Part shown: positions 39,439-53,815 of the stretch, in pieces
Position numbering within the stretch: position 1 is the first letter of the stretch
Layout of the letters: each line of letters begins with the position of its first letter
From: Haloarcula pelagica
GTDB lineage: Archaea > Halobacteriota > Halobacteria > Halobacteriales > Haloarculaceae
Direction of reading: 5' to 3'
Assembly: GCF_030127105.1 (NCBI RefSeq)
Contig: NZ_CP126161.1
Coordinates: forward strand, 2,480,001-2,544,000
Length of the DNA stretch: 64,000 bases
Program-made: the position numbers and the translations under genes
Notes under the pieces: model-generated
Databases searched by the model: none
Told to the model about the DNA's origin: nothing
What the model saw: the letters and a program-made list of their open reading frames with translations, nothing else

Positions 39439-39864
39439 ATGCGAACCGTCCGCGACGAGTCGGGCACACGATACCTCCTGCTCAAACGGTCCAGCGAGTC
39501 GAGCCTGGTCCGGGACCCCGAGACCGGTGAGCGAACGCACGTCGCGAACGACCGACTCGAACCGGTCGAGGGCGAGTCGCCGTTAGAGACCGCGGCGGCG
39601 GCAGTCTCCGAACCGGTCCGTCGGCTACTGACGGCGGTCCACGACGACCGATCGCTGGGCCTGCTCGTCGAACTCGACGACCGTGGCCCCCTGGCGGTGA
39701 CGGACCTGCTGGCCGCCTACGACCTCTGTGAGAGCGACCTCCACGGCTTACTCGGTGAGTTCCGCGCCGCCGGGCTCGTCACGGAGGCGACCGTGGCCGG
39801 CCAGCCCGGGTACGACGCCACCGAGACGACGGCCGACGCGCTGGCGGCGCTCGACGGCCGCTAA
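39439..39864 (+). CDS. Probable winged-helix protein next to rad50
   Basis: The 141-residue protein has a beta-rich N-terminal part (MRTVRDESGTRYLLLKRSSE, then a LVRDPETGERTHV-type segment). A helical C-terminal part looks like a winged helix: GLLVELDDRGPLAVTDLLA, then LCESDLHGLLGEFRAAGLVTEAT. It could regulate transcription. Its stop overlaps the end of convergent rad50 by four bases. I believe this neighbour is conserved beside mre11-rad50 in other haloarchaea, but that is from memory. Confidence 0.72.
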   Translation: MRTVRDESGTRYLLLKRSSESSLVRDPETGERTHVANDRLEPVEGESPLETAAAAVSEPVRRLLTAVHDDRSLGLLVELDDRGPLAVTDLLAAYDLCESDLHGLLGEFRAAGLVTEATVAGQPGYDATETTADALAALDGR

Positions 39865-42530
39865 ACTAACTCCGCCACGGTCGCCTCGACCCGTTCGACG
39901 CGCGAACGGTTCGACGTGGCGTCTTTCTCGACCCGGACCAGGTCGTCGGCCGCGCCCACGAGTTCGTCGTCGTGGCTGACCACGAGGATCTGCTCGACGC
40001 CGACCTCGTCGCGCATGTACTCGATCAGATCGAGCAGCTGCGTGACGTGACCCGAGTCGAGGAAGACGGTGGGCTCGTCGAGGATCAGCGGCGGCATCGG
40101 CGCCGATCCCTCGATCCCCTCCGCGAGCAGGCGGTAGATGGCACACCGCAGACTCAGGTTGAACAGTGCGCGCTCCCCGCCCGAGAGCTGTTCGGGTTCG
40201 AGGGCGTCGCCGTCTTTCTGGTAGACGGTGAGTTCGTACTCCCCGTCCAGTTCGATGTGTGAGTACGAGTCGTTCTGGTAGATCAACTCGAAGGTCTCGT
40301 TGAGCATCCGTTCGAGCGTCTCGACGTTGCGCTGGCGGAGCTCGGCTCGCAACGTCCCGTACATCTCCTGGAGCTGCTCGGCCTCGTCGTACAGCCGGTC
40401 CAGTCGGTCGAGCGTCTCGGCCAGTTCTGCCCGCCGGTCGCGCAGCGATTCCAGTTCGTCCAGTTCCGTTCTGACGCCGCCGATCGCGCTCTGGAGTTCG
40501 TCGCGGCGCTCACGCAGTTCCGTCAGCTTCGCCTCGGCTTGCTCTAGGTACGCCGCCGCGCGCTCTCTCTCCGAGCGGGCGTCTTCGATCCGGGACTCGT
40601 CGACCGCCGCCGCGAGCTCCTGTTTCCGTTCGCGCTTCTCGGCCAGCCGCTGGCGGCGCTCGTCGTTGACTTCGGCGAGCTGCGATCGCTGACTGCGGAG
40701 CTGCTCGATGTCGCTCTCGCAGTCCTCGACCTCGTCGAGCAGGTCTTCGATCTCCTCCAGCCGCCCGATCGACCGTTTGACCGACTGCCGCTCCTGGTTG
40801 CATTCCCCGATGATCGACCGACACTCCGCGGCCCGCTCCTCGGCCGCCGTGGCGGCCTCGCGCTTCGATTCGGCCTCCGCGTCCAGTTCGGCGGCGTCAG
40901 AACGGAGTTCCTCGATACGTTCCTCGTCGGCGTTCAGCCCGGACTCTTTCTCCTCGATCAGCTGGACGACGGTCGACCGGGTGTCCCGGAGCTGTGCCAG
41001 CCGATCGGCGGCCTCGGCCAGTTCCTCGGCGGTTTCGAGGTCAGCTTCCAGTGTCTCGACCCGCTCTCTGGCCTCGGACAGGTCGGTTTCCAGGTCTGCG
41101 ATCCGCTCGCGGTCCGACTCGATGGAGTCGACGTGGGGGGACCCGGTCACGTCCTGGCCGCATTCCGGACACTTGCCCTCTTCCAGCAGTGCCTCGGCCT
41201 CGGCGAGCGACGCCCGTTCGTTCTCCAGGCGGGTCTCCAGTTCGGTCACCCGCTGGCGGGCGTCGGCCAGTGCGGTTGCGACCGACTCCCGGTGGGATTC
41301 GACCTCGTCCCGGTCGATCTCGGCCGCCTCGAAGGTCGCTTCGAGGGACTCGATCTCGGCGTCGATCTCAGAGAGCTTCTCGCGCCGGTCGGCGATCGTC
41401 TCGCGCGCGGCTTCGAGGTCCGCTTCCAACTGTGTCGCGGTCTCGCGGTGGTCCGCCGCGCGCGCTTCCAGTTCCTCTGCCTGCTCGCTCAGACTCTCGG
41501 CCTCGCCGCCGTGTTTCTGTGCCTCGACCTTCTGGGTCTCGATGCGCGATCGCAGTTCCTCGACGCGCTCGTCGAGGGCGTCGAGGCGGGCGGTGACGGC
41601 CTCCCGGTCCGGACTGTCCAGATCGGTCGCCGCGACCGTCTCCTCCAGTGTCGCCTGCAGCGACTCGCGCTCGTCCTTCCGCTCGGAGAGTCGGTCTTTC
41701 AGCCGCTCTCGTTCGGTTTCGGCCTCGGTGATCGTCGACTCCAGGGACTCGATGTCGTCGGTCAGCTCCGCCAGTTCGGCCTGTTTCTCCTCGTACTCGT
41801 CGAGGACGGACTCGGCCTGGTCGCGGGTCCGCTCGGCGGCGGCCCGTTGCTCCTCGACGTGTTCGATGTCGGACTGGACCTCGGTGAGTTCCGTCTCCAG
41901 CCCGTTGAGCCGCTCGTGGAGGTCCTGTGACTCCTTCTCGGCGATCTGGTCTTCCAGCTGGGAGCGCGCCCCCTGCTTGTCGTCCCGCACCCGGCCGACC
42001 CCGACGCGGGCGTCGCTGGCCCGCTCACGGTACGTCTCCAGCTTCCCGAGTTGCAGGAGGTCGTCGAGCATGTCCTGGCGGTCGCTCGGCGTGGCGTTGA
42101 TGAGCTTGTTCACCTCGCCCTGGCGGACGTACGCGCAGTTGACGAACGCCTCGCTGTCCATCCGCAGCAGTTCGGTGACCCGGGCGCGAACGTCACGGGC
42201 GCCCTCGAAGGTCCCCGTCGGCGTCTCCAGGACGCACTTGGCGGTGGTCGGGCGCTCGCCCGTCGCCCGCACTCGCCGGGTCAGGTGGTACTCCTCGCCG
42301 GCGTGACTGAACCAGAGTTCGACGGTACAGTCGTCGGCACCGAGCGTGACCACGTCCCCGAGGGTCTCGTCGATGGCCGTCGCGCCGTAGAGGGCGAAGA
42401 AACACCCCTCAAGCAGCGAGGACTTCCCGCTCCCGTTGAGGCCGTGGATGACGGTCACGCCGGGGTCCAGTCGCAGGTCGGCGTCGTCGTAGCACTTAAA
42501 ATTCTCCAGGCGGACGCGCTGGAACCTCAT
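39861..42530 (-). CDS. rad50: DNA double-strand break repair ATPase Rad50
   Basis: This SMC-like ATPase tethers DNA ends with Mre11. The 889 residues contain Walker A GLNGSGKSSLLEG at the N-terminus, a long coiled coil with the zinc hook CPECGQDV at about residue 450, then a second coiled coil. The C-terminal half has the signature QLSGGERALFNLSLRCAIY and Walker B LILDEPTVFLD. The start is ATG 42530 rather than GTG 42536, because a Shine-Dalgarno GGAGG ends about seven bases before the ATG and would be too close to the GTG. It directly follows mre11 with 13 bases between. Confidence 0.96.
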   Translation of the reverse strand: MRFQRVRLENFKCYDDADLRLDPGVTVIHGLNGSGKSSLLEGCFFALYGATAIDETLGDVVTLGADDCTVELWFSHAGEEYHLTRRVRATGERPTTAKCVLETPTGTFEGARDVRARVTELLRMDSEAFVNCAYVRQGEVNKLINATPSDRQDMLDDLLQLGKLETYRERASDARVGVGRVRDDKQGARSQLEDQIAEKESQDLHERLNGLETELTEVQSDIEHVEEQRAAAERTRDQAESVLDEYEEKQAELAELTDDIESLESTITEAETERERLKDRLSERKDERESLQATLEETVAATDLDSPDREAVTARLDALDERVEELRSRIETQKVEAQKHGGEAESLSEQAEELEARAADHRETATQLEADLEAARETIADRREKLSEIDAEIESLEATFEAAEIDRDEVESHRESVATALADARQRVTELETRLENERASLAEAEALLEEGKCPECGQDVTGSPHVDSIESDRERIADLETDLSEARERVETLEADLETAEELAEAADRLAQLRDTRSTVVQLIEEKESGLNADEERIEELRSDAAELDAEAESKREAATAAEERAAECRSIIGECNQERQSVKRSIGRLEEIEDLLDEVEDCESDIEQLRSQRSQLAEVNDERRQRLAEKRERKQELAAAVDESRIEDARSERERAAAYLEQAEAKLTELRERRDELQSAIGGVRTELDELESLRDRRAELAETLDRLDRLYDEAEQLQEMYGTLRAELRQRNVETLERMLNETFELIYQNDSYSHIELDGEYELTVYQKDGDALEPEQLSGGERALFNLSLRCAIYRLLAEGIEGSAPMPPLILDEPTVFLDSGHVTQLLDLIEYMRDEVGVEQILVVSHDDELVGAADDLVRVEKDATSNRSRVERVEATVAELV

Positions 42531-42543
42531 CGCCACCCCTCCA

Positions 42544-43803
42544 TCAGATGAACTCCTCCATGCTGGACTGATCCTCGCCGTCTCGGGCCTCGGCGTCCGC
42601 CGGCGAACTGTCGGTCGGCGGTTCGTCTGTGGCCGTCTCCGTCGATTCGCTCCCCTCGGCCGTCCCGGACGCTGGCTGGTCGGCCCCGTCGCCCGCGGAG
42701 AGCGATTCGGGCTCTGTTTCGATCAGGTCGCGGACCCGCTGCTCGACCGCGGACGTGACGTTCGCGTCGGCGACTTTCGAGGCGCGGATCGTCTCGTCGA
42801 TGTCGCGGGCGGCCTCGCTCAGGCCCAGTTCCCGCACCCGCTCGGTGACCGCGTCGTCCGGGTCCGCGAAGCTCACGTCGGTCTCTCCCGTCTCGGCCGC
42901 GAACTCCCGGTGGTCGGTGACGCGGGCGACCAGTGCGCCCGCGTCGAGCGCGTACTCCTCGACGCTGGCCGGGGCGATCGGGTCGCCGTCGCCGTCGATG
43001 CCGACGACGACGACCGCGCCTTCCACGTCGTACTGGCCGACCTGGCTCCGTACGCGGTCGAGGCCTTCCTCCGGGCCGAGGTCGATGTCGACGTAGACGA
43101 ACTCGCGGGTATCGAGCCCGCGGCGGGTGATCCGGACCTCGCCGTCGAAGGTGACGATGTTGTAGCCGCGGTCTCCGCGCTCGCTCGCGCTCGCGCGCTC
43201 GGTGGACCCACAGTAGGTGACCCACGCGTCGGCGACTTCCTGTCTGCCGGGCGCGTGGTTGTCGCCCAGCAGGAGGGCGTCGAACGCGACCGACGACGCT
43301 GTCAGTACCTCCTCGGCGTCCCAGTCGCCGTAGTCGAACGGCTGGAACAGGCCGTGGGTGACCAGCGCGGCGTGGTCGGCGTCGTGGGGGGCGAACTCGT
43401 ATTCGAGGTCGTCCCGCTGTGACCGCGGGACGAAATCGAGCCCGTAGAACGCTGTGTCGTCGATCACCGTCGGCTCGTCGTCCAGCCGGACTGCGAGCCC
43501 GAGCGACTCGTAGAGGTCGAGCCACTGCGCGTCCCGCTTTGCCTCGTGATTGCCCACGACGGCGAGAAAGGGAATGCCGGCGTCGTCGAGCTGTTCCAGC
43601 ACGGAGAGTGTTCCCATGATGTCCGTCAGCGACGGCCGACGGTCGTGGAACAGGTCCCCGGCGTGGACGACCGCGTCCACGTCGTCGTCGATGGCGTCCT
43701 CGACGACCTGTCGGAACGCGTCGAGGAAGTCCCGGCGACGCTCGGGGACGTGGTACTGCTGGTACCCCAGGTGGGTGTCGCCCGTATGTATCACCCGTGT
43801 CAT
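42544..43803 (-). CDS. mre11: DNA double-strand break repair nuclease Mre11
   Basis: This metal-dependent nuclease partners with Rad50. The 419 residues carry the phosphoesterase motifs GDTHLGY (Asp9, His11), HAGDLFHDRRP, VGNHEAKRD, VTHGLF and GDNHAPG. The capping domain follows. The final 80 residues are acidic, rich in Ser/Glu/Thr, and end in SSMEEFI, likely a flexible tail that includes the Rad50-binding part. ATG 43803 begins exactly at the conserved first strand MTRVIHTGDTH. The upstream open frame to 45219 is an artefact of high GC. Confidence 0.96.
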   Translation of the reverse strand: MTRVIHTGDTHLGYQQYHVPERRRDFLDAFRQVVEDAIDDDVDAVVHAGDLFHDRRPSLTDIMGTLSVLEQLDDAGIPFLAVVGNHEAKRDAQWLDLYESLGLAVRLDDEPTVIDDTAFYGLDFVPRSQRDDLEYEFAPHDADHAALVTHGLFQPFDYGDWDAEEVLTASSVAFDALLLGDNHAPGRQEVADAWVTYCGSTERASASERGDRGYNIVTFDGEVRITRRGLDTREFVYVDIDLGPEEGLDRVRSQVGQYDVEGAVVVVGIDGDGDPIAPASVEEYALDAGALVARVTDHREFAAETGETDVSFADPDDAVTERVRELGLSEAARDIDETIRASKVADANVTSAVEQRVRDLIETEPESLSAGDGADQPASGTAEGSESTETATDEPPTDSSPADAEARDGEDQSSMEEFI

Positions 43804-43921
43804 TCGTGCTGGCGTATGCCGTCCCCGCCTAAAGAGGTGTTGCGACCGCGGTGAAAGTGGTCGCCGGCGCCGGACGGTCCCGGACGAGGGTTCAAGTATC
43901 ACCACGGGACCAACGGCCGAC

Positions 43922-44539
43922 ATGGCGGACAGCGAAACACTGTCGGAACGAGTCAGCGCCGTCGAGCGAGCGATGACCGACGGCGAACAGACGCTTCCCG
44001 AGGCCGGCGCGGTCGCGGAGGTAGAGCCCAGGGTCGCCGACATCGAGACCCGACTCGCGGACCTCGACGAGCGGGTCACCGAACTGGAGGCAGCGACACA
44101 GGCGCTCCGCGGGTACGTCGGCTCGATCAAATCGGTCAACGAGGATGTCGAACAGCGCGCGGACGCCGCGCTGGCGGCCGTCGATCGGATCGAAGACCGG
44201 CTCGACTCCCGGCAGTCACGCGCGGACGACGGCACAGCCGACCGGGAAGCGACACGAGAGCGGCCACGGCACGAGGACGGTCGCCAGTCGGCACGACCCG
44301 CCCAGTCGACCGGTCTGGAGCCAGAACCGTTCGGTACCCGGCCCGATGGACGGTCCGACGCGGGCCGGGAGGTGGCAGACCGCGAGAACGCGGACGGGAC
44401 CACCGACCGCCAGACCGCCGACGGGATCAGACCGCCACGGACCGTCGGTGACGACGCCCAGCAGTCGGGTGATGCCCGCGAAACCGGGGACGGCGAGCGA
44501 CGGGCCGGCGTGTTAGCCCGCATCCGCTCGCTCCTGTGA
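43922..44539 (+). CDS. Coiled-coil protein opening the pilus-like locus
   Basis: The 205-residue protein has a helical N-terminal half with heptads (about residues 35-90: RVADIETRLADLDERVTELE and following) and a disordered, Asp/Arg/Thr-rich C-terminal half ending RRAGVLARIRSLL, an amphipathic tail that could contact membrane or partner. From memory it corresponds to a haloarchaeal DUF in the pilus locus (DUF7310). Its TGA overlaps the GTG start of the next gene, so translation is coupled. It is probably a cytoplasmic accessory factor of the secretion system. Confidence 0.72.
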   Translation: MADSETLSERVSAVERAMTDGEQTLPEAGAVAEVEPRVADIETRLADLDERVTELEAATQALRGYVGSIKSVNEDVEQRADAALAAVDRIEDRLDSRQSRADDGTADREATRERPRHEDGRQSARPAQSTGLEPEPFGTRPDGRSDAGREVADRENADGTTDRQTADGIRPPRTVGDDAQQSGDARETGDGERRAGVLARIRSLL

Positions 44540-45012
44540 TCGTCCGTCTCGTCCTCGCGGTCGTCGTCACCGCGGCGCTGATCGGGGCGAGCATGCCCGG
44601 CGTACGGACCGTCCGCGCGGACCACGCCGACGCGACCGTCGCCCGCCAACTGGAGACCCTGTCGACACGGCTCCAGGCCATGGTCGAGCGCGACGACCCC
44701 ACCGTTGGCCCCGGTGCCCAACTGCGGGCCGACGTACGGCTCCCGCGCCGCTCGTTCACCCGGAGTCGGATCACCGCGCTGTCGTTTCTCAGCGACGGCG
44801 ACACGACCGTGGCGACCTGGCGCGTCAGCGACGGCGGGCGAACACGTCGTCTGCTGGTCGACTTCCCGCTTCGGACGGCCGGGACCGAGTTCACGCTCCG
44901 GGCGGCCGGAACACACCGGCTCGTGTTCGGGTACCGTCACCACAACGGGAGTCGAGTGGTGACCGTCCGGCGGTTTAAGTCGGATGCCGCGGCCACGACG
45001 GGCTATGTGTGA
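44536..45012 (+). CDS. Secreted or membrane-anchored pilus-locus protein
   Basis: The 158-residue protein begins at GTG 44536 with a hydrophobic N-terminus (MIVRLVLAVVVTAALIGASM) that acts as a signal peptide or anchor. The remainder is beta-rich with many arginines (RADVRLPRRSFTRSRITALS, then LLVDFPLRTAGTEFTL). The end overlaps the next gene's start by eight bases. It resembles haloarchaeal DUF7311 from memory. It could be a minor pseudopilin or an assembly accessory; no pilin peptidase motif is clear. Confidence 0.7.
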   Translation: MIVRLVLAVVVTAALIGASMPGVRTVRADHADATVARQLETLSTRLQAMVERDDPTVGPGAQLRADVRLPRRSFTRSRITALSFLSDGDTTVATWRVSDGGRTRRLLVDFPLRTAGTEFTLRAAGTHRLVFGYRHHNGSRVVTVRRFKSDAAATTGYV

Positions 45013-46849
45013 ACTGCTACCGGGCTCGACCGACGAGCCCGACTGTCGCTGTCGGGTGGCAGTCGACGACGCGCTGCTTCGGGTCGACGCCAGCGACTGC
45101 CCGGGCGGTGGTGACCTCGCCGCCCAGGCACCCTGTCGACGGACCGTCGTCGAGTCGCTGGGCGGGGGATCGATCGAGCGGATCGTCACGAGCCAGCGCG
45201 GACTGGAACGGGTGTACATCGACGGAGCGGCCGCACTACTGTGTGCAGCGGGTCGGTTCGCGGCCCGCGTGTCGACGGTCGACCAGCGATTGGCCGACCG
45301 CGCACGGACCGATCCACTGGCCGCCGCCGAGGAGGCTGTCGGGCGAGCCGGCCCGGTCGCGACGATGGCGGCGGAGACGGGGCTCGCCCTCGCGAGCGAG
45401 CAGACCGACGACTACGAGACCGTGCTGCGTGCGTACGTCGGCCCGGCGGTCAGCGACGCGCGGATCGCGACGACGCTGCCAGCGGCCGCCACGCTCGTCG
45501 ATCGGTGGACCACCGACACGGAGGCGGTCGTCCGCCAGTACGAGCACAGCGAGGGGACGGACAGCTACCACCTGGAACCGCGCGAGGCGCGGTTCGACCA
45601 CGAGACGACCGCACGGCTGGCAGGCGCGTACGACCGTCTGGCGAGTGCCGGCGCCGCGTCGACGCCGTATCAGGCCGCCGGCACGGTCACCGACGACGGG
45701 GCGACTGCCGCGGCCGTCGGGGCCGTCCTGGCGAAACACACGGAGGGGCTGGGCGTCCTGAAAGACCTCTTTTCGGACCCGCGGGTCTCGGACGTGTTCG
45801 CGACGGCACCGGTCGCCGAGACGCCCCTCCGGGTCCGCGTCGACGGCGAGACCATGGCGACGAACGTCAGGCTCTCCGCCGACGGAGCCCGGGCGCTCGC
45901 CTCGCAGTTCCGCCGATCGAGCGGTCGCGCGTTCTCCCGGGCGAAGCCGACGCTCGATGCCACGGCCACCGTCGATGGACGACGGGTTCGTGTCGCCGGT
46001 GTCGCGGACCCGGTCAGCGACGGCCTCGCGTTCGCCTTCCGCGCACACGACAGCGATCGCTGGCGACTGGGCGACTTCGTCGCCAACGGGACCATGCCCG
46101 CCGCCGTGGCCGGACTGCTGTCTGTCGCCGTCGAGCGTGGCGGAGCGTGCCTCGTGGCCGGCCCGCGTGGTGCCGGCAAGACCACGACGCTCGGTGCGTT
46201 GCTGTGGGAACTCCCACAGTCCGTGCGGACCGTCCTCATCGAGGACACGCCGGAGCTTCCGGTCGAACAGCTCCAGGCCGACGGCCGCGATGTCCAGGCG
46301 CTCCGGACGACCACTTCCGATGGTCCGGCGGTCGAGCCGGCCGAAGCGCTCCGGACGGCGCTCCGTCTCGGGGACGGATCGCTGGTCGTCGGCGAGATCC
46401 GCGGCGAGGAGGCAGCGGTGCTGTACGAAGCGATGCGGGTCGGCGACGGCGACGACGCGGTCCTGGGGACGATCCACGGCGGCGGCCCGGAGGCCGTCAG
46501 CGAACGACTGGTGACCGACCTCGGCGTACCCGAGTCGTCGTTCGCCGTCACCGATCTCGTCGTGACGCTCGGCCAGTCGGACGCGACCGGCGACCGGTTC
46601 GTCCGCCGCGTCGACGAAGTTCGGGACTGCGAGGCCGGTGTCACGTTCGAACCACTGTTCAGGCGGACCGGCGACACGACCGAGCCGACCGGAACGATCG
46701 ACCGTGGGAACAGCCGACTGCTCGAAACGCTCGCACGGCCGTCGGAGTCGTATGCGGCGATCAGGTCCCGTATCGAGGACCGGTCGGCGGCGATCCCGAA
46801 CGAGACGACCAGCCGGGAGCCGGGACACCGCACGCGGGAGCAGGCGTGA
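45005..46849 (+). CDS. Type II/IV secretion system ATPase (PilB/VirB11-like)
   Basis: This hexameric ATPase powers pilus or secretion assembly. In 614 residues, the N-terminal domain of about 250 residues has a cysteine-rich start (CELLPGSTDEPDCRCRV, then CPGG and APC), perhaps metal-binding. The ATPase domain carries Walker A GPRGAGKTTTLG at about residues 386-397, the Asp box VLIEDTPELPV, Walker B LVVGEIRGEE and the His box GTIHGGG. This matches archaeal GspE-type proteins, which pair with a TadC/PilC platform protein, encoded next with an overlapping GTG. Confidence 0.92.
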   Translation: MCELLPGSTDEPDCRCRVAVDDALLRVDASDCPGGGDLAAQAPCRRTVVESLGGGSIERIVTSQRGLERVYIDGAAALLCAAGRFAARVSTVDQRLADRARTDPLAAAEEAVGRAGPVATMAAETGLALASEQTDDYETVLRAYVGPAVSDARIATTLPAAATLVDRWTTDTEAVVRQYEHSEGTDSYHLEPREARFDHETTARLAGAYDRLASAGAASTPYQAAGTVTDDGATAAAVGAVLAKHTEGLGVLKDLFSDPRVSDVFATAPVAETPLRVRVDGETMATNVRLSADGARALASQFRRSSGRAFSRAKPTLDATATVDGRRVRVAGVADPVSDGLAFAFRAHDSDRWRLGDFVANGTMPAAVAGLLSVAVERGGACLVAGPRGAGKTTTLGALLWELPQSVRTVLIEDTPELPVEQLQADGRDVQALRTTTSDGPAVEPAEALRTALRLGDGSLVVGEIRGEEAAVLYEAMRVGDGDDAVLGTIHGGGPEAVSERLVTDLGVPESSFAVTDLVVTLGQSDATGDRFVRRVDEVRDCEAGVTFEPLFRRTGDTTEPTGTIDRGNSRLLETLARPSESYAAIRSRIEDRSAAIPNETTSREPGHRTREQA

Positions 46850-48528
46850 GCGGGGCGGTTGTCGCGCTCGCATCGGCGTGGCCCCTCATTGTGTCGGTTC
46901 CCGAGTCCTATCGGCGTGCCTGTCGACTGCTGGACCTGGACGTGACCGCCGAGTCGTTGCTGGCGGCGAGTTACGTGCTCACGGCGCTGCTCTTCGGGAC
47001 CGGTGTCACAGCGAGTGTCCTCGGGGGCAGCCAGGTCGGGGCGATCACCGCGTTCTCCCTGGCGGGGCTGAGCCTGGCCGGCGGCCGGTACGGCGTCGAG
47101 TTGGCGGCACAGGCCCGCCGTGTTCGGGCGCTGGGGACCGCGCCGTCGCTCGTCACCAGGCTCGTCCTCGCCGTCGAACTGTGGCCGACGACCGAACGGG
47201 CGGCCGCGTTCGCGAGCGAGACGGGATCGGGGCTGCTCGCCGAACGTCTAGCCGCCCACCACCGGCGGGCGCGTGACACTCCACAGAGCGGATTGCGCGC
47301 GTTCGCCGAGGAGTGGGGCGCCACGTTTCCGGCACTGGAACGTGCACTCACCGGCATCGAGCGCGCCGCCGTGGCGCCGGCCGACGAACGGAACGAGATC
47401 CTCGCGACGACCCGGAGACTGCTGCTCGAAGGGACACGCGAGGAGATGGCCGCCTTCGCCGCATCGCTCCGGATTCCGACGACAGGGCTGTACGCCTTCG
47501 GCGTCTTGCTCCCGCTCGCGCTCGTCTCGCTCGTCCCGGCCGCCGGGATGGCGGGGATTCCGGTCACCCGTTCGCTGCTGGTGGCCGCCTACGTCGTCGT
47601 CCTCCCGATCGGAGTGCTCGTCGCTGCCGCCTGGATTCTCGCCAGGCGTCCGGTCGCGTTCCCGCCAGTCGTGGTCTCCCGGAGTCATCCCGATGTCCCC
47701 GACAGTCCGTGGATGGGCATTCTGGCCGGTCTCGTCGCCGGCGTGGGCTGCCTAGGCATCGGAGCGCCAGTCCTCCCTCCCTGGGGTGTCCCGGTGGCCG
47801 CAGTCGGCGTCGGGGCCGGGACGACACTCGTCGGGGTTTTCCGCCCGGTCGTCGGAGTGCGGGAGCGCGTCGTCGCGGTCGAGTCCGGCCTCCCCGCCGC
47901 GCTCCAGGGACTCGGTCGACGGCTCGACCGCGGCGAGGCCGTCGAATCGGCGCTGCCGGCCGTCGCCGACGAGAGCCAGGCCCCGCTCGCGGGTGTGCTA
48001 GAGTCGGCAGCGAACCGCCAGCGACGCCTCGGTGTCACCGTCGAGGAAGCGTTCTGCGGCGAGTGCGGCCCGCTCACGACGCTCCCGAGTCGTCGCGTCC
48101 GCGACACGGCCTCGCTGCTGTCGGTCGCAGCCACCGTCGGCCCACCCGCGGGCTCGGTCCTGACGGAGATGGGCGATCACCTCTCGGATCTCCGTGAGGT
48201 CGAACAGGAGACCCGACGCGACCTCGCACAGATCACCGGAACGCTCACCAACACCGCTGCCCTGTTCGGACCCCTCGTCGGCGGGACGACGGTCGCACTC
48301 GCCGGCTCGATTGGCCCGACCGGACCGGTGTCGAGCGTCCCCGTCTCGGTCCTCGGCCCGATCGTCGGCTGGTACGTCCTCGTGCTCGGGGCCGTCCTGA
48401 CTGCCCTGTCTGTCGGTCTGCACCGTGGGCTCGACCGCGCGCTGGTCGGCTACCGCGTCGGACTGGCACTGCTCGCGGCCACGGCGGCGTACTTCGCCGC
48501 CGTCGCTGGCACCGGGCTCCTGGTGTAG
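46846..48528 (+). CDS. Type II secretion/pilus membrane platform protein (PilC/TadC-like)
   Basis: The 560-residue multi-pass membrane protein starts at GTG 46846, overlapping the ATPase stop (GTGA). Two T2SF-like segments are visible, one before residue 220 and one in the second half (RRLDRGEAVESALPAVADES, then REVEQETRRDLAQITGTLTNT), each followed by hydrophobic helices, for about seven to nine helices total. It is the inner platform that turns ATPase motion into filament extrusion. Archaeal versions are duplicated, unlike single-domain bacterial PilC. Confidence 0.9.
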   Translation: MSGAVVALASAWPLIVSVPESYRRACRLLDLDVTAESLLAASYVLTALLFGTGVTASVLGGSQVGAITAFSLAGLSLAGGRYGVELAAQARRVRALGTAPSLVTRLVLAVELWPTTERAAAFASETGSGLLAERLAAHHRRARDTPQSGLRAFAEEWGATFPALERALTGIERAAVAPADERNEILATTRRLLLEGTREEMAAFAASLRIPTTGLYAFGVLLPLALVSLVPAAGMAGIPVTRSLLVAAYVVVLPIGVLVAAAWILARRPVAFPPVVVSRSHPDVPDSPWMGILAGLVAGVGCLGIGAPVLPPWGVPVAAVGVGAGTTLVGVFRPVVGVRERVVAVESGLPAALQGLGRRLDRGEAVESALPAVADESQAPLAGVLESAANRQRRLGVTVEEAFCGECGPLTTLPSRRVRDTASLLSVAATVGPPAGSVLTEMGDHLSDLREVEQETRRDLAQITGTLTNTAALFGPLVGGTTVALAGSIGPTGPVSSVPVSVLGPIVGWYVLVLGAVLTALSVGLHRGLDRALVGYRVGLALLAATAAYFAAVAGTGLLV

Positions 48529-48559
48529 GTTTAAGACCGATACCGGGACCAGACCGCCC

Positions 48560-49027
48560 ATGTTCGACGTACCGATCGATACAGTCACGCTCTGGGCCGG
48601 CGTGGGGGCGGTGAGCCTCGCCGTGTTGACCGTCGTCGCCCAGGCACCGACGACCGCAGCGCCGGACGCGACCGCCGTCGCGGCGACCGTCGACGAGGTG
48701 GCGACGAGTCCGGCGGGGTCGGTCGAACGGCGACCGCTCCGTGCGCAGTACTGGCTGCTCGACGACCGGCAAGTCGGGCTGAAAAACGCGGGCGGAGCGA
48801 GCCACGCATCGCTCCATCGGACGGCCGTCCCGGTAAGAGATGGGCCGCTCGCTCCGGTCCTCGACGAGGGTCGTCCGGAATCGGTGTTCTCGTCGCCGAC
48901 GGCGTTCCGACGGGCGGTCGACAGGCGCCGGGACCGCTCGGGGAACCGGACCTGGCGGCCCGCGCCGGATCGACTGACCGTGCGCCACGTCTCCTGGGAG
49001 GGTGTCGATGTCACGCTCGTCGGCTAG
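48560..49027 (+). CDS. Pilus-locus protein with N-terminal hydrophobic helix
   Basis: The 155-residue protein has a membrane helix at residues 8-28 (DTVTLWAGVGAVSLAVLTVV) and an external domain. A TATA-like TTTAAGA (48531-48537) is about 27 bases before its ATG, suggesting an extra leaderless promoter inside the locus. The short polar N-terminus followed by a hydrophobic helix resembles archaeal pilins, but a canonical class III signal site is not evident. I associate it from memory with DUF7283. Confidence 0.68.
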   Translation: MFDVPIDTVTLWAGVGAVSLAVLTVVAQAPTTAAPDATAVAATVDEVATSPAGSVERRPLRAQYWLLDDRQVGLKNAGGASHASLHRTAVPVRDGPLAPVLDEGRPESVFSSPTAFRRAVDRRRDRSGNRTWRPAPDRLTVRHVSWEGVDVTLVG

Positions 49028-49397
49028 GGCGACGGCTGAGCCCCTGGCCGCGCTCGTCGCGGTCTTCGCGGTCACGGCCGGCGTCGCGCTGTACGCCGGC
49101 GTGCTCGACGAGGCACTCGCCGGTGTCGAGACCGATCGGAACCGGGCAGCACCGACGGCGGACCTGATCGAACGCAACCGCTCGACGGCCGGGATCTTCG
49201 ATCCTTCGGGGCTCGCGAACTCGCTGACGGCGCTCCCAGACGGCTACTCGGGAAACGTGACGGTCAGGGCCGGGGGGAGATGGGCCGCCGGACCGACGCC
49301 GCCAGCGGACAGTGATCGCGTCCGACGGACGGTGAGCGTCCGAACCGAGCCCGGTATCGTCCGGCGCGGGACACTCCGTGTCTCGGTGTGGCGATGA
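49008..49397 (+). CDS. Pilin-like small membrane protein
   Basis: The 129-residue protein begins with about 12 polar residues ending in a small/Arg-containing stretch, then a hydrophobic helix (PLAALVAVFAVTAGVALYAG) typical of pilins and pseudopilins. It then has an extracellular beta domain. ATG 49008 is chosen over GTG 49002 because GGGAGG ends about six bases before it. It overlaps the previous gene by 20 bases and the next by four (ATGA). It likely assembles with the platform protein. Family from memory: DUF7285. Confidence 0.68.
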   Translation: MSRSSARATAEPLAALVAVFAVTAGVALYAGVLDEALAGVETDRNRAAPTADLIERNRSTAGIFDPSGLANSLTALPDGYSGNVTVRAGGRWAAGPTPPADSDRVRRTVSVRTEPGIVRRGTLRVSVWR

Positions 49398-50278
49398 CCC
49401 GCGCCGCGAGTACCGTCGTCGACGCGACGGTGTTTCTCCTGTTCGTCGGTGCTGCGGTCGCAGTGGTGCTGAGCGGGACGGCTGCCGAGTCCCCGCGTGT
49501 CGGCAACCCGGCCGCCGCCGACGCCGAACTCCTCGCGACCAGCACCGCGACCGTCGAGTACAGCCTCTCGACGCGCGGGCTGGGACCCAACCACACGGCT
49601 CCGGACTGGGTCGCCAACGGGACCGCCAGACGACAGCGATCGGCCCACGGCACCGTCGCGGAACTGCTCGGCGATGCGGCCATGCGCTCCGTCGCTATCG
49701 GGGGTCGCCCCCTCTCGCGTTCGGGTGCAGAGTTCGAGCGCGCCCTGTCGGCGACGACCCGACGGCGACTTCGGGAGCGCAAACGACTGACGGCCGTCCG
49801 GGTCCGCTGGCGACCGTATCCCGGTGCACCGATCGGCGGGGGGTATCGCGTCGGTGACCGACCACCGCGTGACGCGGGCGTCAGAGCCGCCTCTGTGACG
49901 GTCTCCAGCGGCGTGGATAACGTGACTGCTCGTGCACTCGTGGCTGCACGGTCGTCCGGCTACGACGGCGTCGCGACGGTGGTCGCACGGGCCGTCGTCG
50001 CTGGGATCTTCCCGCCCGAGCGAACCGAACTCGCGCTCCGAGGGGACTACCCCGCCGACGTGCTGACTGCGGCCCGGTACGGCCGGGCGGGCAACGCCAC
50101 GGGCACTTCTTTGCCGATCCAGCGGGGGAACGTGACGGAACTGAACCGGCGACTGACCGTCGCGCTCGCGGACACACTCGAAGCGGACATGCGAACACGG
50201 TTCCGGTCGCCGACCGCAGCAGCGCGGGCGACCGAGACCCACCGTGTCCGTGTGACCGTCAGGACGTGGTCGCCGTGA
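49394..50278 (+). CDS. Pilus-locus secreted/anchored protein
   Basis: The 294-residue protein starts MTRAASTVVDATVFLLFVGA, a pilin-like N-terminus with a helix (about residues 9-29), and a large extracellular domain rich in Arg, Thr and Asn. Potential N-glycosylation sequons include NHT, NGT and NVT. Its start ATG 49394 overlaps the previous stop. Family from memory: DUF7284. It may be a minor subunit capping or anchoring the filament. Confidence 0.7.
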   Translation: MTRAASTVVDATVFLLFVGAAVAVVLSGTAAESPRVGNPAAADAELLATSTATVEYSLSTRGLGPNHTAPDWVANGTARRQRSAHGTVAELLGDAAMRSVAIGGRPLSRSGAEFERALSATTRRRLRERKRLTAVRVRWRPYPGAPIGGGYRVGDRPPRDAGVRAASVTVSSGVDNVTARALVAARSSGYDGVATVVARAVVAGIFPPERTELALRGDYPADVLTAARYGRAGNATGTSLPIQRGNVTELNRRLTVALADTLEADMRTRFRSPTAAARATETHRVRVTVRTWSP

Positions 50279-53200
50279 TGGACGACCGCGGGCGGGTCCC
50301 GTTCGCGCTGTTGGGTGTCCTCTTGCTCGTCAGCAGTCTCACCCTGGCCCCGTCGTTGACGGTGCAGCCCCCGGTCAGCGAGACGACGATCGAACGGGCG
50401 GTCGACCGGACGACCGCCGAGACACAGACGGCGATCAGAGACGGCGTCTCCACGGCCAGCCAACGGGCGGCCGCCGATCCCGTCGTGACGCCGGCAAACA
50501 CCACCGCCGGACGTGCGCTGAACGACTCGTCCCCGTTCAGGGATTCGCTCCGTCTCCGGGTGTACCTCCAGGTCCGGGGCCGCCTCGAACGGGTGGGGTA
50601 CGAACGCGAGGGCGTCACCACGACCGCGTCGCTCCCGCGCGTCGACAACACAAATTCGCTCCGGACAGCGAAACGCCGGGTCGAGATCCGGCGGGCCGGC
50701 CCGAACGGAACGGCGGTCCGGGCCACCGTCGAGAACGTCACGCTGCGGGTCCGACGCGGTGGCCGCGTGATCGATCGCCGGACCGTCTCGCCGACCGTCG
50801 TGGTCGCGACGCCCGTGTTGGCCCTCCACGAACAGGTGTCGACCTACCAGACGCGGCTGAACAACGGGCTCGGGAAACCGGGCTTCAGTCAGCGGCTCAC
50901 CGCGCGGCTCTACCCGATTGCGTGGGGCCGGGGGTACGCGCAGTACGGCGGTGTCCCGATCGCGAACGTCGTCGGCAACCGCCACGTCTCGCTGGCCGCC
51001 AACGGTGCTCTGCTTGGCGTCCAGCGGTCGACATTCGGCCGGAGCGATCCGGCCGGGAGGCGGGCGCTCACCGAAGCGACGGCGATCACCGGGATCAAAG
51101 ACATCATCGGCGGGAGCGAACCGTCGCTCGTCACGAAGCAAGTGCTCAACCGGGCGAACTACCGGCCGGCGGCCAGCGACATCGGCCGTGGCGCGAAGAA
51201 CTGGAGCGCTCCACGACCGAACGACACGATGCGCGTCGGGATCAACGGGACGGCAGACAGGGCCTTCCGTCGGGTCGCCGGCCCGTCGAAACTGGGTGCC
51301 ACGACGGCCGCGGCCTACCGTGTGCAGGCACGCCTCGTGACCGACACTCGTCGGCTCGGCGGCGGGAGACCGCCGGCGCCACCGTCCCCGGGGGCGAACT
51401 GGACGCTCGTCGACGCCCGGACGACCGACACGACGACGGTCCGAAACGCCAGCGGAACGGTGTCGGTCCCGTCGGGCTGGCACCGGTTCGACGGTGTCGT
51501 CCGCCAGGTCCGGGTCCAGTACCGGCGGACGGCCGAGTGGTCCAACGGCTCGGCGACTCGCACGACGGTCAGCCGCCGGACCGCCACCTACCGCGTCGGT
51601 GTCGCACTGATCGGGCGACACGCCAGTCGGTCGGCCGCTCCGGAAAAGGGGGTCTCGACGGCTCACGACACGAGCGGGAGTCCGCTGAACGGGCCGAATC
51701 TCGCGGATGTCGAGTGGAAAGCCACACAGCGGCTGGTGACGGACGCGGGCGGGTTCAGCACGATCGCGGCCACTGCCGTGACCGGTCGGCTCTCGACAGC
51801 GCCGATCACGATTCAGGGGGCCCGGCCGGCGGGTCTCCGGTCGTGGGTGTATCGCGACCTCATGGAACTCCGAGAGCGCGTCCGGAACGTCAGCGTGGCG
51901 GTCGAACGGGGGAAGGTGGGAACGTTCGAGGCGAATCCACCGGGTCTGTTGCTGCAGCGTCTGGACGCCCGTCGCGCGTCCCTGGCCGACGTGCCCGCGA
52001 CGTACAACAGCACGGCACAGCGTGCGCGGGTCGCGGCCCGCATCCGGTATCTGGACGCGGTCGAGAACCGGCTCGCGAGCCAGATGCGAACGCGGACGGA
52101 CAAACGGAGTGCGTTCGCGTCGCAGCTACAGAAACGCGCGGGTGGCTCGATCCGGGACCTTCGGCGGGGGCTGACGGCCCGACAGACGACGGTCCCGCGC
52201 TCTCGGCCGGTCCCTGAGGGGATCGCCGGCCCCGTCCGGACGCGCGTCGACGCTCGCCCGCCGTATCTGACGCGGGCGAAACTGAGCGAGCAGCGGTATC
52301 CGGCGCTGAACGGCACCGAACACCCGCTGGTCACGGAGAACGTCAACGTGTTCTCGCTCCCCTACGGTAACGCCGCGTCGACGCTCACCGACGCGATCCT
52401 CGCGACGAGAGATCGGACCCGACTCTCGACGGCTGCGACGGCGCTCCGGGCCACGAACGCGACGATCGACACCCAGCGGAACACGACAGTCGCGGTGAAC
52501 GCCACGAACGGGGCAAACACGACGACTGTCACGTTCCAGCCGGTCAACGCGACGCTGGTCTCGCGGCGTGACCGGCTCCAGAACGATATCGGATGGACGA
52601 ACGACCACCTCACAACGGAGTTGGCGGATGTGGTCGCGATCGAGACGGGGGCGAGCACGCGGGAGAGCAGGGCCATCGTCGCGGACGGGCTCGATCGGTG
52701 GAACACGACACACGAACGGGCGGCGGCGTTGACGGATGGCCGTGCGGTCAACCGCGTCGGCGCCGTCGCCGCGCGTCGACTGAACCTCTCGCGGCCCGAA
52801 CGCGACTGGCTCCGGCTCAGACTGTCGGCTCGACTTCACACGCGACTCAACAGATCGTATATCGGGCCGCGGTCGAAACTCGTCAACGCGTCGGCGGCGG
52901 CCACCCGGTCGGTCTCCGAAACGGCCATCAATACGGCACTCACCGAGGCAGGGAAATACGGGGCCGAACAGATCGCGAAGAAGCGACTCGGGACGGATAT
53001 GCTCCCGGCGGGACTGCCGCTCGCCCCGCCGGTCGCGCCGTGGTACGCGACGACGAACGTCTGGTGGGTCTCTGTCCGCGGTGAGTACGGCCGGTTCGCG
53101 ATCACGGCGAACCACGGGCCGCCGTCGGCCCCGGCCGGGATGACGACCTACGCACGGGACGGCGACGCCGTCACAGTCGATGTCGACGAGGACGGGACCG

Positions 53201-53346
53201 CCGAACGGCTCGGCACCGCCGACCGGATCTCGTTCGCGGCCGAGACCGGTGTCGTCGTGGTCGTCCCGCCCAAGCCGCGGGGTGTCGGTGACAAAGACGG
53301 CAACACCGTCGAACGGTCGCCCGGGTGGCCGGACGCGGGCGATTGA
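50278..53346 (+). CDS. Giant pilus-locus surface protein
   Basis: The 1022-residue protein begins with MDDRGRVPFALLGVLLLVSS, a hydrophobic N-terminal helix, followed by an immense extracellular region. It has many sequons (NTT, NDS, NST, NGT), repeated Arg/Thr-rich segments, and a central helical part. No enzymatic motif is evident. Codon use and composition match the neighbours, so it belongs to the locus, and it starts one base before the previous stop ends (TGATG). It may be a tip adhesin, a structural stalk protein, or the system's secreted cargo. Family from memory: DUF7286. It has no recognised homologue outside haloarchaea. Confidence 0.75.
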   Translation: MDDRGRVPFALLGVLLLVSSLTLAPSLTVQPPVSETTIERAVDRTTAETQTAIRDGVSTASQRAAADPVVTPANTTAGRALNDSSPFRDSLRLRVYLQVRGRLERVGYEREGVTTTASLPRVDNTNSLRTAKRRVEIRRAGPNGTAVRATVENVTLRVRRGGRVIDRRTVSPTVVVATPVLALHEQVSTYQTRLNNGLGKPGFSQRLTARLYPIAWGRGYAQYGGVPIANVVGNRHVSLAANGALLGVQRSTFGRSDPAGRRALTEATAITGIKDIIGGSEPSLVTKQVLNRANYRPAASDIGRGAKNWSAPRPNDTMRVGINGTADRAFRRVAGPSKLGATTAAAYRVQARLVTDTRRLGGGRPPAPPSPGANWTLVDARTTDTTTVRNASGTVSVPSGWHRFDGVVRQVRVQYRRTAEWSNGSATRTTVSRRTATYRVGVALIGRHASRSAAPEKGVSTAHDTSGSPLNGPNLADVEWKATQRLVTDAGGFSTIAATAVTGRLSTAPITIQGARPAGLRSWVYRDLMELRERVRNVSVAVERGKVGTFEANPPGLLLQRLDARRASLADVPATYNSTAQRARVAARIRYLDAVENRLASQMRTRTDKRSAFASQLQKRAGGSIRDLRRGLTARQTTVPRSRPVPEGIAGPVRTRVDARPPYLTRAKLSEQRYPALNGTEHPLVTENVNVFSLPYGNAASTLTDAILATRDRTRLSTAATALRATNATIDTQRNTTVAVNATNGANTTTVTFQPVNATLVSRRDRLQNDIGWTNDHLTTELADVVAIETGASTRESRAIVADGLDRWNTTHERAAALTDGRAVNRVGAVAARRLNLSRPERDWLRLRLSARLHTRLNRSYIGPRSKLVNASAAATRSVSETAINTALTEAGKYGAEQIAKKRLGTDMLPAGLPLAPPVAPWYATTNVWWVSVRGEYGRFAITANHGPPSAPAGMTTYARDGDAVTVDVDEDGTAERLGTADRISFAAETGVVVVVPPKPRGVGDKDGNTVERSPGWPDAGD

Positions 53347-53386: not shown

Positions 53387-53815
53387 ATGCTCAGAGCGGA
53401 GTTTCCCGACGCAGCCGAGCAGTCTTCGGCGGCCCTGCTCGCGGCCTACGAGTCGCTCCTGACGGCGACGATCGAGACGGCCGGTGTCGACGCCGTCGCC
53501 GCACAGACGGGACTGGACCGGGACGTGATCGAGGCGATCGCCGACGGTGAGGCAGCCGACGTGACACTCGCGGACGCGGCGGCCGTCCTCGCGATCGACC
53601 CGGACCGCCCCGACGCCGGAGCGATCGAGGCCGAGGCCCGGGACATCCTCCTGATGGGGATGACCACGGCGGTGATGGACGTAGAGTCGCTGGCCTCGGG
53701 GATCGACAGCGAACTCGACCCCAAGGAGATCCAGCAGAAGATCGAAGGCCGCTACCCGGTGACGCTGGCCGAGTACGCCCGCCTCCACCAGTACATCGAG
53801 AGCCAGCAACAGTGA
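53387..53815 (+). CDS. Conserved haloarchaeal protein (DUF5791-like)
   Basis: The 142-residue acidic, mainly helical protein has no membrane segment. An internal Cro-like helix-turn-helix arrangement may be present (about residues 33-65: GVDAVAAQTGLDRDVIEAIA). The C-terminal helix region reads LDPKEIQQKIEGRYPVTLAE. I recall it as DUF5791, with an unproven function. Its last codons overlap the GTG start of the downstream epimerase-like gene. Confidence 0.72.
   Translation: MLRAEFPDAAEQSSAALLAAYESLLTATIETAGVDAVAAQTGLDRDVIEAIADGEAADVTLADAAAVLAIDPDRPDAGAIEAEARDILLMGMTTAVMDVESLASGIDSELDPKEIQQKIEGRYPVTLAEYARLHQYIESQQQ

Follow-up and report, generated by a model that had tools for sequence, protein, structure and literature searches.

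Gene content of the locus

We analysed a window of DNA, the whole 64,000-nucleotide stretch at C1:2480001-2544000 of the 4.46 Mb genome of a haloarchaeon, Haloarcula pelagica (handle G000). Window positions 43922-53346 hold eight plus-strand genes, which probably encode most of an archaeal type IV pilus machine. A first-pass annotation had described a pilus or secretion locus of eight plus-strand genes with these outer coordinates, and all eight open reading frames were present as claimed. It had also described the genes as mostly overlapping by a few bases, which was true of six of the seven junctions (spacing, in order: -4, -8, -4, +31, -20, -4 and -1 bp). From gene 1 to gene 8, the Pfam assignments were DUF7310, DUF7311, T2SSE, T2SSF-like, DUF7283, DUF7285, DUF7284 and DUF7286. 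All six DUF proteins scored above the Pfam cut-off. The features are listed here, with protein lengths in amino acids (aa).

43922..44539, plus strand: gene 1, DUF7310 coiled-coil protein, 205 aa (PF23991, E 5.7e-30); first gene in nearly all haloarchaeal loci
44536..45012, plus strand: gene 2, DUF7311, 158 aa, N-terminal membrane helix, minor pilin-like (PF23993, E 1.1e-30)
45005..46849, plus strand: gene 3, PilB/TadA-type assembly ATPase, 614 aa (PF00437, E 4.8e-21)
45044..45136, plus strand: Cys-rich N-terminal domain of the gene 3 ATPase (C14, C16, C32, C44)
46160..46186, plus strand: Walker A motif GPRGAGKTT of the gene 3 ATPase (conserved columns, alignment A3)
46466..46480, plus strand: His box GTIHG of the gene 3 ATPase (invariant columns, alignment A3)
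46846..48528, plus strand: gene 4, PilC/TadC-type platform protein, 560 aa (PF00482, E 5.7e-5); behind the ATPase in examined loci
48560..49027, plus strand: gene 5, DUF7283, 155 aa, N-terminal hydrophobic helix (PF23954, E 1.8e-38)
49008..49397, plus strand: gene 6, DUF7285, 129 aa, minor pilin-like, leader MSRSSARA|TAEPLAAL (PF23956, E 1.4e-32)
49394..50278, plus strand: gene 7, DUF7284, 294 aa, minor pilin-like, leader MTRA|ASTVVD (PF23955, E 1.7e-86)
50278..53346, plus strand: gene 8, DUF7286, 1022 aa, putative giant minor pilin or tip protein, leader MDDRG|RVPFAL (PF23957, 1097 bits)

The PilB-like ATPase of the first-pass annotation was recovered through its T2SSE match, its Walker A motif and its His box (GTIHGG), and the CxC...C...C pattern of its N-terminus was kept in homologues. 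The duplicated PilC/TadC-like platform protein held up in part. T2SSF matched only the C-terminal half of gene 4, at 23.5 bits against a curated cut-off of 25.2, and profile-profile comparison of the two halves (probability about 50%, E 1.8e-4) gave weak support for an internal repeat. Pfam gives DUF7310 as a coiled-coil region, in line with the coiled coil proposed for the first gene; its protein has no hydrophobic segment and is predicted to be cytoplasmic. N-terminal hydrophobic helices had been claimed for four proteins and were seen in five (2, 5, 6, 7 and 8).

Class III signal peptides (in DUF7286, DUF7284, DUF7285 and the DUF7382 pilin described below) were judged by sequence motif only. 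Under the patterns used, the leader motif was kept in 52 of 63 homologues of DUF7286 (class III-like pattern [RK][AG]|x[VI]PFA), 41 of 52 of DUF7284 and 47 of 51 of DUF7285, and no basic-[AG] leader was found by motif in DUF7283. As had been stated, the window contains no prepilin peptidase; the single Peptidase_A24 match in the genome lies at G000:C1:1942077. An NCBIfam search returned no specific name for the locus proteins, and none of the six DUF names was found in the literature searched. The nearest named loci found were those of Haloarcula and Halomicroarcula, with DUF7286 identity of 59-60%.

Conservation in haloarchaea and methanogens

Our sample comprised 146 Halobacteriales genomes, 122 of them "good" (completeness of 90% or more, contamination no higher than 5%). 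DUF7286 was present in 92 of the 146 genomes and 89 of the 122 good ones, and every DUF7284-positive genome (85/85) had DUF7286 too. The gene order DUF7310-DUF7311-PilB-PilC-DUF7283-DUF7285-DUF7284-DUF7286 was retained in nearly all haloarchaeal loci examined, and the locus behaves as one conserved unit. The first-pass annotation had named a lack of co-conservation among its grounds for refutation, and co-conservation proved very strong. In a second haloarchaeal subtype (L076, L079, L082-L084, L086, L087), DUF7286 has diverged further and is not followed by a DUF5791 gene. No DUF7286 homologue was detected in a search of plasmids.

The family members had been described as conserved in haloarchaea. 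This was borne out, but they are not confined to that group: DUF7286 also occurs in methanogen genomes of the same phylum, where the ATPase, the platform protein, DUF7284, DUF7285 and DUF7286 are present in separate loci, the DUF7285-DUF7284-DUF7286 cluster being found in some of the genomes. In G153, G162 and G171, which we take to be Methanocella-like, a DUF7285-DUF7284-DUF7286 run lies at one place and an ATPase-platform pair at another. In each of the 11 methanogen-side genomes tested, a single ATPase reached 303-381 bits with the locus profile, whereas the other PilBs of the same genome scored at most 112. In a maximum-likelihood tree, a 100/100 branch separated the haloarchaeal and methanogen system ATPases, as one group, from all other PilBs included; the program gave a warning of long branches at this point. 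The other PilBs of the window's genome fell outside the gene 3 clade.

A dedicated pilin encoded in trans

The gene behind the platform gene in the Methanocella-like genomes encodes a 157-159 aa PilA-like pilin, which starts D[DE][RA][AG]|VEGLPVRLIVVLVVGV. A profile of this pilin (A4) found exactly one copy in the window's genome, a stand-alone minus-strand gene at C1:2119495-2119920. Its product belongs to DUF7382 by Pfam, with weaker matches to Ig-like domains, and has a class III signal peptide. At a threshold of at least 80 bits, the DUF7382 pilin was found in 89 of the 92 genomes with DUF7286 and in none of the 54 without it; a few of the 146 genomes had supplied rows to the profile, so that hits there were expected, unlike the remaining hits and the 54 absences. 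Genus g13 repeats the pattern on a small scale, with the pilin carried by its two genomes with the system and not by the three listed without it. The pilin gene lies near PilC in L147, L149, L150 and L152, and in the second haloarchaeal subtype (L076, L079, L082-L084, L086) it lies directly upstream of the gene for a HerA-like ATPase and DUF7310.

These data bear on what the locus builds. The first-pass annotation had offered an alternative surface filament or export of the giant protein. The former is well supported, because a dedicated pilin co-occurs with the locus and, in the second subtype, is encoded alongside it. Export of DUF7286 as cargo is unneeded, since the protein carries its own class III-like leader and is better read as a pilus component. 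The same two observations count against a type II secretion-like pseudopilus, that is, a short non-exposed piston of the five helix-anchored proteins pushing DUF7286 or some other cargo. Such a piston would suit an operon with several minor pilin-like proteins, no major pilin inside and a large final gene; nonetheless, we regard it as highly improbable.

A HerA-like ATPase beside the pilin gene

The HerA-like ATPase (roughly 340 aa; about G000:C1:2120008-2121034, plus strand; HerA_C/DUF87 matches) is encoded divergently from the DUF7382 pilin gene. Among solved structures, it is closest to HerA-type DNA translocases (best PDB match E 2e-21). The two genes lay within 2 kb of each other in 71 of the 73 genomes where both were placed, with a median gap of 139 bp. 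At 200 bits or more, HerA was found in 84 of the 92 genomes with DUF7286; none of the 54 without it had a match counted as the same subfamily, a 246-bit relative in G087 (no system) having been assigned to a separate paralogous group and left out of that count. This second subfamily spans 230-246 bits (G084:C1:1129521, G022:C1:1641806, G041:C2:138920, G087:C1:1801016), and in G084, G022 and G041 it sits beside the true copy, at 230-239 bits. In three Methanocella-like loci (L149 and L150 among them), HerA is the first gene of a run that also holds genes for an A24 prepilin peptidase and a DUF7311 homologue; ATPase, platform and pilin are encoded in another run nearby. The DUF7311 homologue of L149 adjoins the peptidase and has the leader DDAGA|DTLP.

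A shared function predicts that operon, pilin and HerA should decay together. Five genomes retained operon remnants only (L088, L089, L090, L093, L095). Among genomes with collapsed operons, the pilin was not found in G095, had an internal stop in G135 and was truncated in G056, and HerA carried a stop in G045 and survived as fragments only in G056; both genes were intact in G116. Thus, pilin or HerA was broken or missing in four of the five.

The HerA-like ATPase gene could simply lie next to the pilin gene, with a divergent promoter region in common, and contribute nothing to the pilus. Three g3 genomes that retain operon and pilin without HerA would fit that explanation. In the Methanocella-like genomes, however, HerA adjoins the prepilin peptidase and the DUF7311 homologue, not the pilin, and it has degraded along with the system in G045 and G056. 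We consider simple adjacency unlikely.

A role in DNA exchange is conceivable because Sulfolobales offer a precedent, in which the VirB4/HerA-like CedB acts together with Ups type IV pili (PMC9905601, PMC11868833). The filament would then join cells or bind DNA and the HerA-like ATPase would move DNA, which accords with the partner's closeness to HerA translocases and with its linkage to, and joint decay with, the pilin. Yet HerA has a long N-terminal part that is missing from the HerA-like protein, there was no sign of a nuclease partner beside the HerA-like gene, and ComEC-type channels in Halobacteriales are limited to weak hits within a single genus (no search was made for a CedA-like channel). 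ComEC (PF03772) was absent from the window's genome and exceeded the cut-off in 2 of the 146 genomes, and this near-general absence ruled it out as a DNA-uptake partner. We consider a DNA-exchange pilus decidedly unlikely. Its broadest form is an equally long shot: an exchange or uptake pilus common to haloarchaea and methanogens, with its own HerA-class DNA-pumping ATPase, no ComEC and DUF7286 as the contact protein.

A model of the pilus

In our proposal, the assembly machine of a single archaeal type IV pilus and its minor subunits are encoded by the locus, and the main subunit is the DUF7382 pilin made in trans; we put the probability of this reading at about 0.8. The observations behind it are gene content, synteny, ATPase phylogeny, co-occurrence, pilin-HerA linkage and co-decay. 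From them we infer filament formation, subunit order, use of the peptidase and a role for HerA. The single prepilin peptidase (C1:1942077) would trim the class III leaders of the prepilins, and the gene 3 ATPase, working on the gene 4 platform, would polymerise the Ig-like DUF7382 pilin. DUF7284, DUF7285 and DUF7286 would serve as minor pilins or initiation/tip proteins, with DUF7286 as the large exposed one, and DUF7283 and DUF7311 are probably minor pilins as well. DUF7310 would be a cytoplasmic coiled-coil accessory, and the HerA-like ATPase a dedicated further component. The most likely biological use is attachment to surfaces or between cells.

Several points weigh against this proposal. 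No filament has been seen. DUF7283 and the haloarchaeal DUF7311 showed no clear class III leader on motif inspection. The related g3 genomes G043, G051 and G067 keep operon and pilin with no HerA match, and G141 has the system but neither a pilin nor a HerA match. The co-occurrence counts cover related genomes and are uncorrected for phylogeny, yet g13 splits internally and both markers follow the split. Lastly, the DUF7284 structure model (predicted local distance difference test score, pLDDT, 83) matched no pilin fold, and the DUF7286 model was of low confidence (pLDDT 62) and was assigned no fold.

Structural hits for the two models were at background level. The best Foldseek E values were 0.07 (DUF7286) and 0.1 (DUF7284), and the best VIA matches were SecB for DUF7286 (Z 4.9, root-mean-square deviation 3.5, 95 aligned) and ribosomal protein uS3 for DUF7284 (Z 7.2, deviation 4.0, 87 aligned).

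The proposal assigns six DUF families, DUF7382 and the HerA-like ATPase to one testable machine with a dedicated pilin. It also makes a HerA-type ATPase a likely part of an archaeal type IV pilus, of which no report was found in the literature searched. Haloferax volcanii may offer a genetic model, because it matches DUF7286, DUF7284 and DUF7310.

Neighbouring genes and variant loci

DUF5791 (53387-53815) was considered as a ninth gene and rejected: it occurs in 120 of the 122 good genomes, with or without the system, and is a core neighbour only. Rad50 and Mre11 lie directly upstream of the operon (window 39861-43851, minus strand); a functional link was set aside, since the pair adjoins the operon in Haloarcula-like loci only.

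The system is split in G023 (L077 and L160) and G054 (L078 and L161), with DUF7310-PilB-PilC-DUF7283-DUF5791 at one site and DUF7311-DUF7283-DUF7285-DUF7284-DUF7286 at the other. L081 (G140) is a second DUF7283-DUF7285-DUF7284-DUF7286 cluster without ATPase or platform. DUF7310 remains open near DUF5791 in L089, L093, L095 and L159, where most of the operon is lost or moved, which hints at a separate function for DUF7310. In the Methanosarcina-like locus L100 (G342), at 12.6-18.9 kb, a full-length DUF7286 homologue is followed by repeated pairs of a short protein matching only the C-terminal part of DUF7286 and a secreted protein of 200 aa whose C-terminus is hydrophobic.

At least 14.5 kb at the end of contig C1 of G000 is a 99.9% repeat of sequence close to the contig start (C1:79000-93493 and C1:3515434-3529922; L049, L050). 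The assembly probably has overlapping ends, and one PilB locus of G000 was therefore probably counted twice.

Comparison with known systems

The pairing of a type IV pilus with a HerA-superfamily ATPase is shared with the Ups/Ced systems of Sulfolobales (PMC9905601). These belong to a different lineage, the HerA-like protein here is only about 340 aa, and no Ced channel has been shown, none having been searched for.

The PilB3-C3/PilA1-6 adhesion pili of Haloferax volcanii (PMC6491452, PMC4371748) likewise combine an ATPase-platform operon with pilins in trans, and their class III leaders, too, are of the [RD]A type. Unlike the eight-gene locus, which carries several minor pilin-like genes, the PilB3 locus is without pilins (Makarova 2016, PMC4858521). 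The other PilBs of the window's genome also stand apart from the gene 3 clade.

The closest likeness is to subclade 4F of Makarova 2016 (PMC4858521). Subclade 4F has an ATPase with an extra Cys-rich N-terminal domain, a TadC partner, euryarchaeal pilins, a PilA-family major pilin that mostly stands alone (arCOG02981) and is linked through Methanocella, frequent S-layer-like proteins and, in haloarchaeal loci, an intracellular coiled-coil protein (arCOG07564); methanogens are included. Our locus shares the Cys-rich ATPase N-terminus (PF00437; CxC...C...C kept), the adjoining TadC-like platform, though its Pfam score is just under the cut-off, the euryarchaeal-type pilins and the presence in methanogens including Methanocella. 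DUF7310 at the head of the operon and the stand-alone DUF7382 pilin correspond by description. As regards S-layer-like proteins, secreted proteins with a C-terminal hydrophobic tail lie behind DUF7286 in L096 and L100, and none was identified in the window. On the other side, the consulted sections of that paper do not single out the giant DUF7286 protein, and its main text mentions HerA only in naming the superfamily and in a reference.

The first-pass annotation was thus confirmed as to observation and partly supported as to interpretation. It knew of no assigned function, which is true of the DUF families, but the machine fits a described variant. The locus matches subclade 4F by its described features, while the ATPase tree shows only monophyly with methanogen ATPases. 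Because of this match to the subclade 4F archaeal type IV pili (PMC4858521), we do not regard the machine as new.

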